Source: Edaphocola aurantiacus
GTDB taxonomy: Bacteria > Bacteroidota > Bacteroidia > Chitinophagales > Chitinophagaceae
Assembly: GCF_019797745.1 (NCBI RefSeq)
Contig: NZ_VOSI01000001.1
Location: 928,928 to 992,927, forward strand
DNA length: 64,000 nucleotides
Direction: 5' to 3'
Part shown: in pieces, positions 12,635-19,851 of the stretch
How positions within the stretch are numbered: position 1 is the first letter of the stretch
Layout of the letters: every line of letters starts with the position of its first letter
Translations under genes and position numbers: made by a program
Notes under the pieces: generated by a model
Databases searched by the model: none
The model's input: the letters and a program-made list of their open reading frames with translations, nothing else
What the model was told of the DNA's origin: nothing

Positions 12635-13177
12635 TTACATTTTGCTTGCAGTAAAATCGATCGTTACCTGGATCTCTTCTGCAATTTTAGAAACAACAAT
12701 GGTCGGGATCTTGATATTATAATCCTTGGTTTTTACTTTAAATACTGCATGACCGGTAATCTGTCCGTTCTTTACTTTAATAGTAGCCGGAACACTTACA
12801 TCTTTAAGCGTGCCATGGATCGATAATTTACCGGATACGGTTACGCTATATTCACCATCTACATTCGGGTCTATTTTCTTATTATAGGTACCAGTGAATG
12901 ATGATTTAGGATACTTATCGCTTTCCATATAATTTTCATTGAAATGCTCTTGCATCAATGATTTAGGGAAGACAAATTTCGTATTCTCCATAACACACAC
13001 AAGAGAGTTCTCATTGGTATTGATCAGGGCAGAAGTCTGTTTGTTGGTCGCTTTAATATCTTCAACAAGTGTACTGGAGTAGAAGGTTGTCACACCTTTA
13101 TTGGTAAAGTACTTCTGAGCAAAGGCACCGTAGGAGCAGGCACTCAGCAGCACAGCGGCAGCGATGATCTTTTTCAT
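12635..13177 (-). CDS. YceI family protein
   Basis: A 180-residue secreted protein with signal peptide 1-21 (GAFAQ) followed by a lipocalin-like YceI domain: FVFPKSLMQEHFNENYMESDKYP, SSFTGTY, SVSGKLSIHGTLKDVSVP-type strands, and a C-terminal VTIDFTA. YceI proteins bind isoprenoid or amphiphilic ligands in the periplasm. It lies between the cytochrome lipoprotein (20 bases upstream) and the DUF5777 barrel (28 bases downstream), clearly one operon. It might carry a quinone-like or lipid ligand between its neighbours; this is speculation from context. Confidence 0.85.
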   Translation of the reverse strand: MKKIIAAAVLLSACSYGAFAQKYFTNKGVTTFYSSTLVEDIKATNKQTSALINTNENSLVCVMENTKFVFPKSLMQEHFNENYMESDKYPKSSFTGTYNKKIDPNVDGEYSVTVSGKLSIHGTLKDVSVPATIKVKNGQITGHAVFKVKTKDYNIKIPTIVVSKIAEEIQVTIDFTASKM

Positions 13178-13197
13178 ATGGAATGATTTTAAGGAGA

Positions 13198-13560
13198 TTA
13201 ATTATTAAGTCTTCCCTGGTTGATCCAGGCTTGGATTTTGTTGATATCGCAGTCAGATAATTTTGGCGCATTGCTTGGCATCGGAGAGTATCCGCTGGAA
13301 TGTTTGATAACCCCTAAAAGCACTACATCATAAATATTGCCGATTCCTGCATAAGTACTGGTGACTACACCACCACTCGGATTGGCCCCGGAATGGCAGG
13401 AGTTACAGTTATTAGCCATAATGTTGGCAACTGTATTGGCATAGGATACAGCAGTTGTGTCGCAAGTATTATTATTCTTTTGCGATAAGTCGTACTCATT
13501 ATCCTTAGTACAGGAGGCAAAGGCCGATACGAGCGCGAAAGCTACGATCAATTTCTTCAT
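13198..13560 (-). CDS. mono-haem c-type cytochrome lipoprotein
   Basis: A 120-residue protein with a lipoprotein signal (AFASC, lipid on Cys17) and a single haem-binding CNSCH motif (Cys52, Cys55, His56). The Met of YSPMPSNAPKL is a plausible sixth haem ligand, and the C-terminus reads CDINKIQAWINQG, as in small planctomycete-type or cbb3-like cytochromes. It would be anchored in the periplasm as an electron carrier. It heads the operon with the YceI and DUF5777 genes. A promoter box lies about 53 bases upstream of the ATG. Confidence 0.88.
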   Translation of the reverse strand: MKKLIVAFALVSAFASCTKDNEYDLSQKNNNTCDTTAVSYANTVANIMANNCNSCHSGANPSGGVVTSTYAGIGNIYDVVLLGVIKHSSGYSPMPSNAPKLSDCDINKIQAWINQGRLNN

Positions 13561-13612
13561 TTGAATATTTTGTTTGGATAAAATTACGGATTCATGACAT
13601 TAGATGTATATA

Positions 13613-13620
13613 CAAATATA
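13613..13620 (-). promoter_or_regulatory. -7 promoter box for the cytochrome/YceI/DUF5777 operon
   Basis: TATATTTG on the minus strand is an exact TAnnTTTG match and would give a leader of about 45 bases. No clear -33 element at the standard distance. Confidence 0.45.
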
Positions 13621-13688
13621 TGTACAATTTGTTAAGTACTTGTGATTAACAAATTTCGCATTAGCAATTACAGGAGTACCGGACATAA

Positions 13689-13717
13689 AAAGAGTTCACT
13701 AAGATAGTGAACTCTTT
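13689..13717 (-). terminator. intrinsic terminator of the ribosomal protein/secY operon
   Basis: A 13-bp stem (13689-13701 with 13705-13717) with a 3-base loop and flanking A/T bases lies 33 bases beyond the secY stop. It closes the operon. Confidence 0.8.
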
Positions 13718-13749
13718 CGCTATTTAAAGCAATGATTTTTACAATAGTA

Positions 13750-15078
13750 TTACAGTTGGACTGCTTGTCTTCCGGAAACACGACCGGTTTTCATCATACC
13801 ATCATACTGACGCATCAGCAGGTAACTGTCTATTTGTTGAATAGTGTCCAGGATTACTGCAACACCAATCAGCATAGAAGTACCACCGAAGAAGGTAGAG
13901 AAACCGCTGGTTACACCTAATAAAGCTGCGATACCAGGTAAGATACCTGCCAGTGCCAGGAATACAGCACCCGGAAGGGTGATTCTATCCATGATTGCAC
14001 CGATATAATCTGCAGTAGGCTGACCCGGTTGAATACCAGGGATGAAGCTGTTGTTACGCTTCAGGTTTTCGGCCATCTCTGTAGGGTTAAAGATCAGGGC
14101 TGTATAGAAGTATGTAAATACGATTACCAGTACTGCATAAACCAGGTTATACGACAGTGTAGTATGATCTGAAAGGCTTTTCAACCATCCAGCTGCATTA
14201 CCGTCCTGTGCTACCAGACCTGCGATCATTGCAGGAATGAATAATAAGGCCTGAGCGAAGATGATAGGCATTACACCTGCAGAGTTTACTTTCAGCGGAA
14301 TGAAGTTACGGGCACCACCAATTTCTTTGGCAGCGTTTGTACCTACGATTCTGCGTGCATAGTTCAGTGGTATTTTACGTACACCTTGTGTAAGCATAAC
14401 CAGTCCGATCAGTACTGCAATGAACATTGCCAGCTCGATCAGCAGGAACAGGATCTTATCCTGACCGATCTTGGTTGTAAACTCCTGGGCAACAGCCTGA
14501 GGGAAACGACCTAAGATACCAACCATGATGAGTAAGGATACACCGTTACCGATACCTTTATCTGTAATTTTCTCACCTAACCACATTACGAATAATGTAC
14601 CTGCAGTCAATAAGATTACTGTAGAAACGTAGAACAACAGGTTATCCATTACGATAGCACCCGGAATTGGTCTCAGGTATGTACCGATGTAGGCACTACC
14701 CTGGAACGCAGCCACGATGATCGTCAGGAAACGCGTGTATTGGTTAATTTTGTTTCTTCCACTCTCTTCTTTCTGCAGCTTGGCAAATTGAGGAATAACA
14801 ATACCTGCAAGTTGCATAAAGATTGAAGCAGAGATATACGGCATTACACCTAAAGCCAGAATAGCTCCGTTACTGAAGGCACCACCTGCAAACATGTTGA
14901 TCAGGCCCAGTAAACCATCCTGATTCTGATTCTGATTTAAAGCGTTAGGATCGATACCAGGCAGTACAATGAACGTACCTAAACGGTACACCAAAATAAG
15001 CCCTAAAGTAAGCAAAATGCGATTACGCAATTCTTCGATACCCCAAACGTCTTTAACTTTTTCTATAAATTTTTTCAC
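13750..15078 (-). CDS. secY: preprotein translocase subunit SecY
   Basis: The central channel of the Sec translocon in the inner membrane. Its 442 residues show about ten hydrophobic segments and family signatures: LRNRILLTLGLILVYRLGT at the start, the plug region with GGAFSNGAILALGVMPYISASI, and the cytoplasmic loop RRIVGTNAAKEIGGARNFIPLK. It is the last gene of the six-gene ribosomal cluster, 133 bases after rplO. In most Bacteroidota it is followed by map/infA/rpmJ/rpsM, but here a terminator and an unrelated operon follow. Confidence 0.98.
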   Translation of the reverse strand: MKKFIEKVKDVWGIEELRNRILLTLGLILVYRLGTFIVLPGIDPNALNQNQNQDGLLGLINMFAGGAFSNGAILALGVMPYISASIFMQLAGIVIPQFAKLQKEESGRNKINQYTRFLTIIVAAFQGSAYIGTYLRPIPGAIVMDNLLFYVSTVILLTAGTLFVMWLGEKITDKGIGNGVSLLIMVGILGRFPQAVAQEFTTKIGQDKILFLLIELAMFIAVLIGLVMLTQGVRKIPLNYARRIVGTNAAKEIGGARNFIPLKVNSAGVMPIIFAQALLFIPAMIAGLVAQDGNAAGWLKSLSDHTTLSYNLVYAVLVIVFTYFYTALIFNPTEMAENLKRNNSFIPGIQPGQPTADYIGAIMDRITLPGAVFLALAGILPGIAALLGVTSGFSTFFGGTSMLIGVAVILDTIQQIDSYLLMRQYDGMMKTGRVSGRQAVQL

Positions 15079-15118
15079 GAACTTTAAGATTTAAACGAGG
15101 TGCGAATAAACAACAAAA

Positions 15119-15198
15119 AACGCATTTTACCAAACCTTAATATATTTTTTTATATTAAGAAACCTGAAACAGGTTTATCTTGTCTGATAAAATGCGTT
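15119..15198 (-). promoter_or_regulatory. multi-branched RNA structure with U-tract between rplO and secY
   Basis: An outer 11-bp stem (15119-15129 with 15188-15198) encloses two perfect hairpins: 15136-15144 with 15151-15159 (9 bp, six-base loop) and 15160-15166 with 15170-15176 (7 bp, AAA loop). This is a three-way-junction layout. On the transcribed minus strand the outer stem is followed by a run of six T (the last two bases of the stem plus four). It could be an attenuator or partial terminator lowering secY relative to rplO, or a processing site. The pairing is seen; the role is inferred. Confidence 0.6.
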
Positions 15199-15211
15199 CT
15201 CCAATATGATA

Positions 15212-15658
15212 TTAAGCTAACTCTACGGTTCCGCCTGCAGCTTCGATAGCAACTTTAGCGCTAGCGCTTACTGCGTTAACTTTTACCGTTACTTTAGACT
15301 TCAGCTCACCAGTACCTAATATTTTTACAACATCAGTACGGCTGATTAAACCGTTGATATACAGGTTTTCCAAAGAGAAATCTTCCAGACCGTATTTCTC
15401 AACGAAATATTCGATCTGACCCAGGTTGAATACTTTGTAATCAACACGGTTCATTGTTTTGAAACCTCTCTTAGGCATACGACGCTGGATAGGCATCTGA
15501 CCACCTTCGTGACCGATTTTAGATTGATAACCGGTACGGCTTTGCTGACCTTTGTTACCTTTACCTGCGGTTACACCGTAACCACTACCTTCACCGCGAC
15601 CTACACGTTTAGTGTGGTGGGTACTACCTGCTGCTGGTTTTAAATTGTGCAGTTGCAT
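15212..15658 (-). CDS. rplO: 50S ribosomal protein L15
   Basis: A 148-residue large-subunit protein with the diagnostic N-terminal glycine/basic extension (LKPAAGSTHHTKRVGRGEGSG, KGNKGQQSRTG) and a globular C-terminal domain ending TVELA. Order rpmD-rplO-secY is the normal spc order. The gaps on both sides are long for this operon (100 and 133 bases) and both contain terminator-like structures. Confidence 0.98.
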   Translation of the reverse strand: MQLHNLKPAAGSTHHTKRVGRGEGSGYGVTAGKGNKGQQSRTGYQSKIGHEGGQMPIQRRMPKRGFKTMNRVDYKVFNLGQIEYFVEKYGLEDFSLENLYINGLISRTDVVKILGTGELKSKVTVKVNAVSASAKVAIEAAGGTVELA

Positions 15659-15711
15659 AATTGAAATTGTTTTTGTTTACTTGCGCGGAAACAAATCCGC
15701 TCGCTGGTTAT

Positions 15712-15749
15712 AAAAAATTATATTGTGGCTGCACATACAGCCACAATAT
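15712..15749 (-). terminator. terminator-like hairpin between rpmD and rplO
   Basis: A perfect 12-bp stem (15720-15731 with 15738-15749, core TTGTGGCTG/CAGCCACAA) and 6-base loop is followed on the minus strand by a run of six T (15712-15717). It has all marks of an intrinsic terminator, yet it lies inside the ribosomal operon, so it probably attenuates rather than fully ends transcription. Confidence 0.75.
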
Positions 15750-15758
15750 GGAATAGAT

Positions 15759-15941
15759 TTATTTTACTTCTTCAACCTTTACCAGGTGGAATACTTTGGT
15801 AATCATACCTTGAATCTGAGGGTTAACCTCTTTTTCAACAGTAGCGTTCATTTTATTTAAACCCAAAGCTTTCAAAGTGCGTTTTTGACGCTCAGAACGG
15901 TCGATACCGCTTTTAACTTGAGTGATTTTTACTTTTGACAT
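15759..15941 (-). CDS. rpmD: 50S ribosomal protein L30
   Basis: A 60-residue large-subunit protein with the L30 pattern KVKITQVKSGIDRSERQKRT and LKALGLNKMN. Length is typical. It follows rpsE with a 48-base gap. An 8-bp A/T-rich dyad (15959-15966 with 15987-15994) spans the rpsE stop and this gap, with five T on the minus strand after it, a weaker version of the structures in the next two gaps. Confidence 0.96.
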   Translation of the reverse strand: MSKVKITQVKSGIDRSERQKRTLKALGLNKMNATVEKEVNPQIQGMITKVFHLVKVEEVK

Positions 15942-15989
15942 GATTGCTTATTTAAAAAGATAATTGAATAGAATAATTGAAACAAACAA

Positions 15990-16508
15990 TTATCCGTTAA
16001 ATACTTTTTTCAGGTTAATGTTACGGGATTTAGCTACTTCGATCGGTTGACGCATTTGAGTTAAGGCTTTGATAGTAGCTTTAACCACGTTATGCGGGTT
16101 AGCAGAACCTAAAGATTTAGCCAGGATATCTGTATAACCAGCTACCTCTAATACCGCACGCATGCTACCACCAGACAGTACTCCTGTACCATTTGCAGCT
16201 GGTTTGATCAGTACTTTAGCAGAACCTAATTTAGTGAACTGATCGTGAGGTACTGTACCTTTCATTACAGGAACTTTAACCAGGTTTTTCTTAGCATCAT
16301 CGATACCTTTCTGGATAGCTTCCTGAACTTCTTTTGCTTTACCTAAACCCTGACCGATAACACCTTGACCGTTACCTACTACTACTAAAGCAGAGAAACT
16401 GAATGCACGACCACCTTTGGTAGTTTTAACAACGCGGTTGATTGAAACCACCTTGTCTTTTAATTCTAATTCACCAGTTTTTGCTGGGTTGTTATTTGAA
16501 TTTGCCAT
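15990..16508 (-). CDS. rpsE: 30S ribosomal protein S5
   Basis: A 172-residue small-subunit protein. The double-stranded-RNA-binding N-domain carries [23 protein letters not shown]-type sequence and the C-domain has [15 protein letters not shown]. It contributes to decoding fidelity. It is preceded by rplR with a 59-base gap containing a small dyad around a GAGGCCTC core. Confidence 0.98.
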
Positions 16509-16567
16509 TGTAATTTTTTTTGAATTGCGAGGTTCTGAGGCCTCAATTGCTTGATAAATAATTTAAT

Positions 16568-16930
16568 TTAGAATTTAAGGCCACCTTCACGAGCGCCGTC
16601 TGCTAATGACTTAACACGACCGTGGTATAAATAACCACCTCTGTCAAACACTACAGTCTCAATTCCTAAATCTTTAGCTTTTTGAGCAATTGTTTTACCT
16701 ACTAAAGCTGCTAATTCTGTTTTAGTACCAGTTTGTGCTACGATGTCTTTTTGACGACTGTTCGCTGCTACAATAGTTGCACCATTTGTGTCATCTATGA
16801 TTTGAGCATAGATATCTTTGTTAGAACGGAATACAGAAAGACGAGGCTTTTGTGCAGTACCGTTTACATTTTTACGTACTCTGAAGCGAAGTTTTGTACG
16901 ACGCAATACGCTTTTTGCTGTTTTTGACAT
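16568..16930 (-). CDS. rplR: 50S ribosomal protein L18
   Basis: A 120-residue 5S-rRNA-binding protein with [18 protein letters not shown]-like basic start, [18 protein letters not shown], and the C-terminal [20 protein letters not shown]. Normal length. It lies 195 bases downstream of rplF, an unusually wide spacing for two genes that are normally almost adjacent. Confidence 0.98.
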
Positions 16931-17125
16931 TTTATTTTTATTTGTACGGGCTCCCCTTTACGTGTGTAATGCTGGCAATGGTATGTTCCCCGTTTCAGAG
17001 GAATACCTTTTTTGTACATCTCATCACCATACACAGGATAAAGAAGGCTTCCGAAGGTTACTTGTATAGATTATGCTGAATGTCTCCAGGTATAACCGGA
17101 AACATTCAGCATGAGTTTATTATAA
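16931..17125 (-). other. 195-base non-coding spacer between rplF and rplR with a long hairpin
   Basis: No credible gene is present; open frames here are on the opposite strand and resemble nothing. A hairpin with a perfect 11-bp stem (17073-17083 with 17102-17112) lies directly after rplF. Its loop can fold further (TCC-A-GGT-ATA-ACC-GGA). On the minus strand it is not followed by a T run, so it is more likely a processing, stability or protein-binding element than a terminator. Confidence 0.55.
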
Positions 17126-17680
17126 TTATTTACCAGCAGTTTTACCAGCTTTACGACGGATGATTTCACCCTGGAAGCGGATACCTTTACCTTTGTATGG
17201 TTCTGGTTTACGCAGACCACGGATCTTTGCAGCTACCTGACCTACCAGTTGTTTGTCTATAGAAGTCAGTGTAACCAATGGCGCCTTACCTTTTTCCATT
17301 ACTGCAGTAGCGGTAATTTCTTTAGGTAATTCGATGATGATGTTGTGAGAATAACCCAGAGCCATATCCAGTTGCTGACCGGTAACAGCAGCACGGTAAC
17401 CCACACCCACTAATTCCAGTTTCAGTTCATAACCAGCGCTTACACCAACAACCATGTTGTTGATCAGAGAGCGGTATAAACCATGTAATGCACGGTGACG
17501 GATTTGTTCTGTAGGACGGGTGATCGTTACAGTGTTACCTTCAACTTCAACTTTCATATCGCGATCCAGTTGTTGTTTCAGTTCACCTTTAGGTCCTTTT
17601 ACCGTTACTTCGTTAGATGCAGAAACAGTAAGAGTTACGTTGTCTGCTAATGTGATTTGCTTTTTGCCTATACGAGACAT
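17126..17680 (-). CDS. rplF: 50S ribosomal protein L6
   Basis: A 184-residue large-subunit protein: MSRIGKKQITL start, VTVKGPKGELKQ, and the C-terminal KPEPYKGKGIRFQGEIIRRK signature with KAGKTAGK tail. It is the first gene of the cluster. In most bacteria rpsH, rpsN and rplE precede it in the same operon; here a 320-base promoter region and a divergent protease gene take their place. Confidence 0.98.
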   Translation of the reverse strand: MSRIGKKQITLADNVTLTVSASNEVTVKGPKGELKQQLDRDMKVEVEGNTVTITRPTEQIRHRALHGLYRSLINNMVVGVSAGYELKLELVGVGYRAAVTGQQLDMALGYSHNIIIELPKEITATAVMEKGKAPLVTLTSIDKQLVGQVAAKIRGLRKPEPYKGKGIRFQGEIIRRKAGKTAGK

Positions 17681-18000
17681 GTTTAAAAAATTAAAAAAGT
17701 TAAAAAATTAACCTGTTACAGTGTTCAGTTCCACGTATAGGAAAGAACTTTAGATTGTCAGCAACAGATTTTTCAAAATGTTCGCAAAGGTACACCTTTT
17801 TCTAAATATAATCCAAAAAAATAATAATTAAGTCATATTAGTTCTTGAATCTATATGTAAAAGTATAGAAAATAATTGTTCTCCGCAGAAAAACACAATA
17901 ACACCGCATTATTAAAAAATAGTTATCTCTTCTGCGAAACATATTAATACAATACATATCTTTATGAACTTTTTCAACTATTTATTCAATCATTATTTCA
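17681..18000. other. divergent A/T-rich promoter region between rplF and the C10 protease gene
   Basis: 320 bases without a gene. The left part contains a well-formed rplF promoter (see separate entry). The right part is A/T-rich; TATCTTTA at 17957-17964 is a weak -7 candidate for the protease gene. No repeat, tRNA or small ORF was recognised. Confidence 0.6.
17785..17817 (-). promoter_or_regulatory. Bacteroidota-type promoter of the rplF operon
   Basis: On the minus strand TTTG (17817-17814) is followed after 21 bases by TACCTTTG (17792-17785). Both elements and the spacing fit the TTTG/TAnnTTTG promoter of this phylum. The predicted start lies about 100 bases upstream of rplF, leaving room for a leader. 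It supports rplF being the true first gene of the unit. Confidence 0.7.
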
Positions 18001-19851
18001 ATGAAAAAAATATCTATTTCTGCGTTCCTGCTTCTGGGTCTTTTCAGCAGCTCCTACGCTAAGACGGTTAACCAGGAACAGGCCATGAAAGCTGCCAGAA
18101 GCTTCTATACCAACAAAGGTGGCAATGCCAACCTGAGACTTGCACATACCTACACCATCGGTAATACAAACATTCCGACCGTATATGTATTTGAAAGCCA
18201 GTTGGGTAACGGTTTTGTTGTCGTTTCTGCAGAAGACCGCGTACAACCGGTTTTAGGCTACTCTACAGAAAGCAAATTTTATGCAGCAGACAATAGTGTT
18301 TCTCCTGAAGCACAATACTGGTTACAGAACTACAGCAAGCAGATCGCTTCTGTAGCCCTCAGCAACCGTACGGCTTCTGCAGGGGTAACCACGCAATGGC
18401 AGCGCCTTCTTCAAACACAAAGTATCACCATTCCGTCAACATTAGCTACCCCGGTAGCCCCTATGCTGACGACCCTATGGGACCAGGGTACTTATTACAA
18501 CACCCTCTGCCCTACCGGCACTCCTACAGGTTGTGTGGCTACGGCAATGGCACAGATCATGAAATTCTGGAATAACCCTACTCAGGGCACCGGCCAGCAT
18601 ACATACAGCAGCAGTACCCTGGGTGGTACCATGTCTGCCAACTTTGGTACAACTACCTACGATTGGGCTAATATGCCTAACCAGGTAATGTCCGGTTCTA
18701 CGGCAGCGCAGAAATCTGCAGTTGCTACACTGATGTACCACTGCGGGGTATCTGTAGAAATGGATTATGATAACGGAGGCAGCGGCGCCCAGGTAATTGA
18801 CGGTGGTGCAGGCTGGGCCTGTTCTGAAAATGCATTAAAAAATAATTTCGGGTACAAAACCACGATCAAAGGTTATGAGCGTGCCGACTTTAGCGATACT
18901 ACATGGCATAAAATGTTGATGTTCGAGATCAATACCGGTCGTCCTATCCTGTATGCAGGTTTTGGCCAGGTAGGCGGACATGCCTTTGTTTTTGACGGAT
19001 ATGATGCTACCGAGATGTTCCACATCAACTGGGGATGGAACGGATTAAGCAACGGTTATTTTGAAGTAGATGACCTGAGTCCTTCTGCCCTGGGTACCGG
19101 TGGTGGCGCTGGTAACTTTAACTATGGCCAACAGGCCCTGGTAATGATAGAACCAACATCAAGTGTATTACCTCCTAACCCATGGACTCCGGACAACCAG
19201 CAGGTTAGCCTGAATTTAGTGGAAGCAGCTGCTCCAAGTCCTTTGTACGCAGAAGTAGCACAGGGAACATCATACACCGTTACTGCGCCTATCAAGAATT
19301 CCAGCCCGGCAGCCATCTCCGGCATCGTATTATATACTGTGGCAATTGATACTGCAGAAGCGAATAGCAGTGGTAATCCTAATTTCCACATGCTGGGACA
19401 AACTACTTTATCTATCCCTGCTCATGGCACATATACCAATATCACTACGGTGTCTAATATGACTTTACCGGTTTCGGCTTACTATGTTCTGCAATTATAT
19501 GTAGATCAGAACCAGGATATGTATATTGTTACAGACTCTGTTAGTGGTGAACCTACCCTGCCGTTACTGGTTGTAAAAACACCTACCAGCATTCAGAATG
19601 TAGACAAAAACAACCTGATCAACATATACCCGAACCCTGCAATGAACCTGATCAATATCGACGGGGGCAAATTCGGCAGCAAGATTACAGGCTACAAAGT
19701 ATATGACATTGTAGGCAAAACGTATATGAACGCAGCGGTAAATACCAATACGTTCAGCATTGATGCTTCTGCATTAGGAAAAGGCATGTATTACATCCAG
19801 ATGAATACTGCAGCCGGAATTGTTACCAAACCGGTTTCTATCGTAAAATAA
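18001..19851 (+). CDS. C10 family (streptopain-like) cysteine protease with T9SS sorting domain
   Basis: A 616-residue secreted protease. Order: signal peptide (1-20, SSSYA), inhibitory Spi-type prodomain (about 24-120, with VYVFESQLGNGFVVVSAEDR), C10 peptidase domain (about 150-390) with catalytic Cys178 in TPTGCVATAMAQIMKFW and His327 in GGHAFVFDGY followed by FHINWGW, an Ig-like region, and a C-terminal sorting domain (about 540-616, IYPNPAMNLINIDGG to KPVSIVK). It is a likely T9SS substrate acting outside the cell in protein degradation. A conserved lipoprotein gene follows after 4 bases. Confidence 0.93.
   Translation: MKKISISAFLLLGLFSSSYAKTVNQEQAMKAARSFYTNKGGNANLRLAHTYTIGNTNIPTVYVFESQLGNGFVVVSAEDRVQPVLGYSTESKFYAADNSVSPEAQYWLQNYSKQIASVALSNRTASAGVTTQWQRLLQTQSITIPSTLATPVAPMLTTLWDQGTYYNTLCPTGTPTGCVATAMAQIMKFWNNPTQGTGQHTYSSSTLGGTMSANFGTTTYDWANMPNQVMSGSTAAQKSAVATLMYHCGVSVEMDYDNGGSGAQVIDGGAGWACSENALKNNFGYKTTIKGYERADFSDTTWHKMLMFEINTGRPILYAGFGQVGGHAFVFDGYDATEMFHINWGWNGLSNGYFEVDDLSPSALGTGGGAGNFNYGQQALVMIEPTSSVLPPNPWTPDNQQVSLNLVEAAAPSPLYAEVAQGTSYTVTAPIKNSSPAAISGIVLYTVAIDTAEANSSGNPNFHMLGQTTLSIPAHGTYTNITTVSNMTLPVSAYYVLQLYVDQNQDMYIVTDSVSGEPTLPLLVVKTPTSIQNVDKNNLINIYPNPAMNLINIDGGKFGSKITGYKVYDIVGKTYMNAAVNTNTFSIDASALGKGMYYIQMNTAAGIVTKPVSIVK

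Follow-up and report, generated by a model that had tools for sequence, protein, structure and literature searches.

A putative partial intrinsic terminator with a branched interior between rplO and secY of Edaphocola aurantiacus

The gap between the genes rplO and secY was analysed in a stretch of 64,000 nucleotides of Edaphocola aurantiacus DNA (NCBI RefSeq assembly GCF_019797745.1, contig NZ_VOSI01000001.1, positions 928,928 to 992,927), hereafter the window, in which all coordinates below are counted. On its minus strand, rplO, encoding ribosomal protein L15 (15212–15658; open reading frame with a match to Pfam Ribosomal_L27A/L15), is followed by secY (13750–15078; open reading frame and Pfam match), which starts with GTG and is here the last gene of a ribosomal-protein operon. 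A structured element at 15119–15198 lies between these two co-directional genes on the strand transcribed with both, the position expected of a terminator inside an operon, co-transcription being taken from gene order. The closest named record found was Edaphocola flava (Chitinophagaceae), in which the rplO protein and the 133-nt gap are identical and SecY is 99.5% identical.

Folding of the minus-strand RNA gave a three-way junction. The closing stem consists of a 5' arm (15182–15198; AACGCAUUUUAUCAGAC) and a 3' arm (15119–15135; GUUUGGUAAAAUGCGUU) and encloses two perfect hairpins, helix 1 (15160–15176) with 7 bp and a 3-nt loop and helix 2 (15136–15159) with 9 bp and a 6-nt loop, all on the minus strand. 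A U-tract (UUUUUUGUUGU, 15110–15120, minus strand) abuts the closing stem, after which the strand runs on as UUUUUUGUUGUUU from position 15120 downwards. An earlier note, made from the letters of this DNA, had described an 11-bp stem around two perfect hairpins followed by T residues on the transcribed strand; this description was borne out, and the stem was found to extend to 17 pairs. At the DNA level the two arms are 88% complementary. In the minus-strand RNA all 17 positions are paired, 11 of them as unbroken Watson–Crick pairs and the following six including two G-U pairs, and at both of the latter positions the plus strand has A-C mismatches, which fits selection acting on the transcribed RNA. 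The predicted closing helix is longer still, with about 20 continuous pairs, since the U-tract itself is paired with bases upstream of the stem. The region 15100–15215 folded at −37.4 kcal/mol (z −8.1) on the minus strand and at −25.7 kcal/mol (z −5.5) on the plus strand, and in neither case did any of 200 dinucleotide shuffles fold as well.

A stable hairpin on the transcribed strand, placed after a stop codon and with a U-tract directly behind it, is the arrangement of an intrinsic (Rho-independent) terminator. Terminators of this kind typically have one compact hairpin that is GC-rich and has a small loop. Many relatives with simple hairpins conform to this, but the element in the window, which is branched and AT-rich, does not. 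A bidirectional terminator was ruled out, as the plus-strand stem is not followed by a T-run. A search for known RNA families was negative: Rfam 15 gave no match at gathering score anywhere in the window, and the sub-threshold matches were far below their cut-offs. It is not a mobile or repeated element either, with a single full copy in the genome, the 12 other matches all being short and having poor E values (0.15 or worse).

Terminator-like hairpins at this position were then counted across related genomes. A match to rplO was obtained in 144 of 147 Chitinophagaceae genomes, of which 143 were used (in G098 the match lay at a contig edge); both genes were found in 141, SecY being without a match in L134 and L201. 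For comparison, an order sample (26 of 67 matched genomes from other families of the same order) and a class sample (40 of 113 matched genomes from other families of the same class) were taken, together with a named set comprising the best 80 of 537 confirmed family loci, which overlaps the family set. Median lengths of the rplO–secY gap were 78 nt (family), 8 nt (order sample) and 5 nt (class sample). A strict test, requiring at least 7 pairs, at least 4 G-C pairs and a T-rich follow-up and including branched forms, was passed by 101/141 gaps in the family, 2/26 in the order sample (L280 and L282, both from one family) and 0/40 in the class sample, compared with 12/1400 shuffles (0.9%). Within the named set the rplO–secY gap passed this test in 60/80 loci, and the other four operon gaps in 10/75, 2/77, 1/80 and 8/80.

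In most of the family the hairpin is simple, typically of the form AGACGCA...TGCGTCTTTT. Among 114 non-redundant simple hairpins the stem began with GACGC in 49, GGCGC in 12, GGTGC in four and GACAC in three, the others including unrelated stems; as these hairpins had been preselected for pairing, the counts are no test of covariation. The pattern RACGCA-N(3-30)-TGCGTYTTTT had 54 matches in 39 genomes, nine of them directly behind rplO. With 0–7 matches per genome a genome-wide repeat was ruled out as the source of the simple hairpin; similar hairpins do occur elsewhere. Two further features were seen in these gaps: a second inverted repeat resembling AGGTTTGC...GCAAACCT (L025, L028, L054, L115, L137, L139, L140, L143 and L209), and a TTGC-containing block (CGTAATTTGC, CGATATTTGC) directly 5' of the hairpin in many other genera (for example, L030, L038 and L047), a loose pattern for which matched 35/80 named loci.

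The branched form was confined to a small part of this distribution. On a FastTree phylogeny of rplO plus SecY from the 80 named loci, a large loop insert was present in eight (Edaphocola flava, KBW10, MAG-390, 43-16, Taibaiella koreensis, T. lutea, T. chishuiensis and 47-18), which formed one clade explained by one change, with a support of 99. The branched form thus arose once, according to this phylogeny, in the Edaphocola/Taibaiella clade and as an insert into a hairpin loop, with the closing stem and U-tract kept. Nine distinct sequences of the clade were aligned, namely the eight named ones and that of genome G005 (L094). Their minimum free energy folds were three-way junctions in five cases (L014, L015, L016, L017 and L023) and unbranched in four (L018, L020, L024 and L094); the folds predicted for T. 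koreensis, T. lutea, 47-18 and G005 lack helix 1, and the interior sequence varies among species. In the closing stem 96.6% of 117 alignment cells were paired, compared with 42–68% in slid registers. The earlier note had looked to covariation in related gaps, and this was obtained in part: 3 of 13 closing-stem pairs had changed on both sides, as high a number being reached by 12 of 500 shuffles, but the variety of pair types did not exceed that of shuffles. For helix 2, counted in seven sequences, 93.8% of cells were paired and three of seven pairs had changed on both sides (4/500 shuffles as high); here too, pair types were not above shuffles. In these alignments and predicted folds conservation lies in the closing stem, not in the junction. 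Within the 3' arm (15119–15135), UUUGGUAAAA is invariant in all nine sequences, and its letters are already present in relatives with simple hairpins such as L092.

These comparisons bear on a second suggestion of the earlier note, that the element is a ribosomal-protein-binding site giving feedback control. Such a site for L15, S5 or S8, or another ligand-sensing junction, we regard as very improbable and the suggestion as not supported: the nine sequences have no common junction core, with the interior differing and one branch absent from 4/9 predicted folds, most of the family carries a short hairpin only, no Rfam family matches at gathering score, and the element lies downstream of rplO, upstream of which there is a better candidate (see below). 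The variable interior and the missing helix 1 make a protein-binding or ligand-binding site less likely without eliminating it. Variable or absent branches are compatible with one, as in the rpsB leader motif, the inner stems of which are described as variable and sometimes absent in the part of PMC2704228 drawn on here, and the invariance of UUUGGUAAAA could likewise reflect a binding site. Judged by the same part of that source, the rpsB motif precedes its gene, mostly rpsB where the neighbours are known; the rplO–secY element, unlike it, follows rplO, has a U-tract and is replaced by simple hairpins in most relatives. An anti-terminator, in which the 3' arm (AAAUGCG) would pair with downstream CGCAUUU, was also considered, since in many relatives these stretches complement each other. 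It was ruled out because CGCA is unchanged where the stem differs (47-18 and L105) and is transcribed after the decision to terminate has been taken.

The length of the helix and the nature of the insert were weighed for two other origins. A processing signal that separates secY had been a third suggestion of the earlier note. RNase III acts on continuous helices of about 20 bp or more, a length at which the helix in the window may serve as a substrate. Cutting by this or another nuclease, or protection of a 3' end by the hairpin, could leave a stable rplO mRNA and an unstable secY mRNA; we consider this quite improbable, as the stems of simple relatives are below the length for RNase III and processing needs no U-tract. 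That the gap merely received a palindromic insertion with no function of its own seems scarcely credible. The interior does behave as a tolerated insert, and two other operon gaps in the genome also have long palindromes, but the full element occurs once in the genome, and a hairpin with a U-tract has been kept at the same position far beyond the clade.

The sequence behind the hairpin raises a different alternative. Directly after the U-tract, a conserved block of 11 nt (GUUUAUUCGCA; 15101–15111, minus strand) occurs as a single exact copy in the genome. It was found in 19/80 named loci (allowing C or T as the last letter and not insisting on the final A), all within a 20-row Edaphocola/Taibaiella clade and even where the stem differs, and may serve as a start site, a pause or an element in translation. 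A complete terminator could end the operon here, with secY transcribed from a promoter of its own that lies within the gap or close to it, possibly at this block. We consider this rather unlikely, though several observations speak for it: the hairpin is very stable, the block just past the U-tract is kept independently of stem sequence, and secY and map are separated in the branched clade. The promoter consensus TTTG...TAnnTTTG, with one or two mismatches allowed, was matched in 70/141 family gaps and in 899/2820 shuffles (32%); related genomes with matches are not independent, and the best matches were scattered in the 60 of 70 that were inspected, often within the hairpin or upstream of it, which is also the case in the window's own gap. 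A complete terminator also agrees poorly with map, which still follows secY in 67/80 named loci, so that the operon usually continues.

The gene was seen behind secY in none of the eight named branched genomes, within the 1.4–1.5 kb available. Five further loci were without it, of which L031, L033 and L051 end too soon to tell and L029 and L044 do not. Branched form and absence of map coincide in one clade of single origin, which offers no independent instances to compare. As for the operon itself, it is shortened in the window (12635–19851), with rplF as its first gene and secY as its last; rplF adjoins a divergent C10 peptidase gene, and cytochrome-like and YceI-like genes come after secY. 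The near-identical locus of E. flava is likewise without rpsH upstream and without map downstream, genes that are present in 70/80 and 67/80 named loci, respectively.

Translation of secY may be affected as well. In the family, the SecY start codon was GTG in 130/141 genomes and ATG in eight, with three unassigned. It was ATG in 35/40 genomes of the class sample (two GTG, one TTG, two unassigned) and in 22/26 of the order sample (four unassigned), and for rplO in the same family set the start was ATG in 142/143. The GTG start of the family fits a lowered expression of secY and is no proof of it.

Taking these observations together, we consider it reasonably probable that the element is an intrinsic terminator inside the ribosomal-protein operon, and a partial one, which lowers secY relative to the ribosomal-protein genes. 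The earlier note had proposed a terminator with a branched interior or an attenuator, and this proposal is upheld as regards position, strand, U-tract, some covariation of the stem and the hairpin in most of the family; termination itself, and its partial extent, we infer from these features. Polymerase would complete rplO, upon which the closing stem would form in the nascent transcript and, together with the U-tract, halt a share of the polymerases, the remainder reading on into secY. The transcript level of secY would then be below that of the ribosomal-protein genes, and the GTG start would cut its translation further. The SecY channel is required in far fewer copies than ribosomes, and a lower output would suit a membrane channel of this kind. 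The three-way junction would represent an ancestral hairpin whose loop expanded in one clade, the inner helices holding the enlarged insert in a folded state and thereby still allowing the closing stem to form.

Several findings weigh against this interpretation. A fold of −37 kcal/mol is predicted to be so stable that termination could be nearly complete, and the promoter-like matches, being commoner in family gaps than in shuffles, favour the alternative in which termination is complete and secY has its own promoter. Where map is missing behind secY, as in the eight named branched genomes, one cannot argue from a longer operon. The closing stem is AT-rich, its pair types are no more numerous than in shuffles (500/500 reach the number), independent changes are few, and its 3' arm is conserved beyond what pairing requires. 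Within the family 40/141 gaps failed the strict test and 22/141 a loose one, and the loose test, passed by 119/141 gaps in the family, 3/26 in the order sample and 0/40 in the class sample, was also passed by 517/2800 shuffles. Finally, the branched minus-strand structure was absent from the output of a simple terminator scan, presumably because the scan takes loops of 3–8 nt only.

Partial termination between genes needed in different amounts has precedents. The attenuator between rplL and rpoB in the rif operon of Escherichia coli, next to which lies an RNase III site, is a partial terminator that separates ribosomal-protein genes from a non-ribosomal gene needed less. It is a functional parallel among ribosomal-protein operons, with other genes involved, and no homology is claimed. 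In cellulolytic Clostridia, internal terminators were shown by Northern blots and reporters to set ratios within operons, and their efficiency was altered by the length of the U-tract, the length of the stem and, in some cases, by whether the U-tract was paired (PMC9045158, in the part drawn on here). The terminators of ABC importers described there resemble the element in having a stem-loop and a U-rich tract between highly and less expressed partners, and in a U-tract that tends to pair with upstream sequence; they differ in genes and phylum, and the present element is branched, has a GTG start behind it and is a terminator as predicted from sequence. The E. coli spc operon has its genes in the same order, with rplO and secY at the end; the passages of the review PMC10931766 drawn on here place the translational action of S8 at the beginning of rplE, call the regulation of secY and rpmJ unclear and mention no terminator between rplO and secY. 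The titles and opening lines of abstracts among the papers listed in literature searches described neither a terminator between rplO and secY nor an L15 leader in Bacteroidota.

A second, small element was observed at about 15672–15704 (minus strand) in the gap between rpmD and rplO, just before the rplO start codon. It consists of GCGAG, a stem of 3–6 bp that varies in sequence (CGG/CCG, GGG/CCC, CCC/GGG, CUCCG/CGGAG and others), a loop, CG, and AAGU-AAAA. The literal pattern GCGAG..AGT was present in 121/142 family genomes, 0/26 of the order sample and 1/40 of the class sample; several family genomes without it have what look like diverged copies, and others nothing similar. In 55 aligned sequences all of the 220 cells of a four-pair stem were paired (100%, compared with 53–77% in slid registers) and 30 cells had changed on both sides, which was reached in 0/500 shuffles, the structure having been derived from the same alignment. 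The loop had at least five consecutive Watson–Crick matches to the stretch before the start codon in 68/166 non-redundant sequences, suggesting a pseudoknot; the frequency was 9% in shuffles and 16% against the downstream stretches of other genomes, related sequences are not independent, and 24/224 loci could not be parsed. A covariance model found the element in 15/15 family genomes, in 14 with E ≤7e-4 and in one with 0.13, the best match always being directly before rplO, with one weak second match (E 0.94) and none in eight genomes of other families. In each genome 150 first-look candidates were scored, and the alignment behind the model included some of the genomes searched (G001, G003 and G004, which are L014, L015 and L016), so that the result supports a single good copy in each genome more strongly than it does an independent discovery. 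Rfam had no match to it at gathering score. A search of the assembly for 23S rRNA, made with possible mimicry by the rplO leader in mind, gave no match. The element looks like a ribosomal-protein leader of rplO, and it appears to be a better candidate for ribosomal-protein feedback than the element between rplO and secY.

Two further structures were noted upstream in the operon. A perfect 13-bp hairpin followed by AATTTTTT also lies between rpmD and rplO (15720–15749, minus strand), and at the same place KBW10 (L015) has a hairpin in which bases are altered and the pairing kept. In the 195-nt gap between rplF and rplR (16931–17125, minus strand) a hairpin of about 17 bp is predicted, along with another long structure.

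More speculatively, rplO of the Chitinophagaceae may be framed by two lineage-specific RNA elements acting together on the ratio of ribosomal proteins to SecY: in front of the start codon an apparently pseudoknotted leader to which L15 or a partner binds, and behind the stop codon an attenuator with read-through set by translation of rplO. The branched form of Edaphocola would then be a tuned attenuator, the inner helices of which alter folding speed and read-through. We put this forward as a long shot.

The putative terminator is of a known kind, and its branched form is new. In most members of the Chitinophagaceae the hairpin probably keeps secY quieter than its ribosomal neighbours, and a border between rplO and secY that is marked by both a hairpin and a GTG start makes the question of how SecY is held below the ribosomal proteins directly testable in this family. 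The branched form of the Edaphocola/Taibaiella clade adds a natural experiment on how far the interior of a terminator can change with closing stem and U-tract kept.
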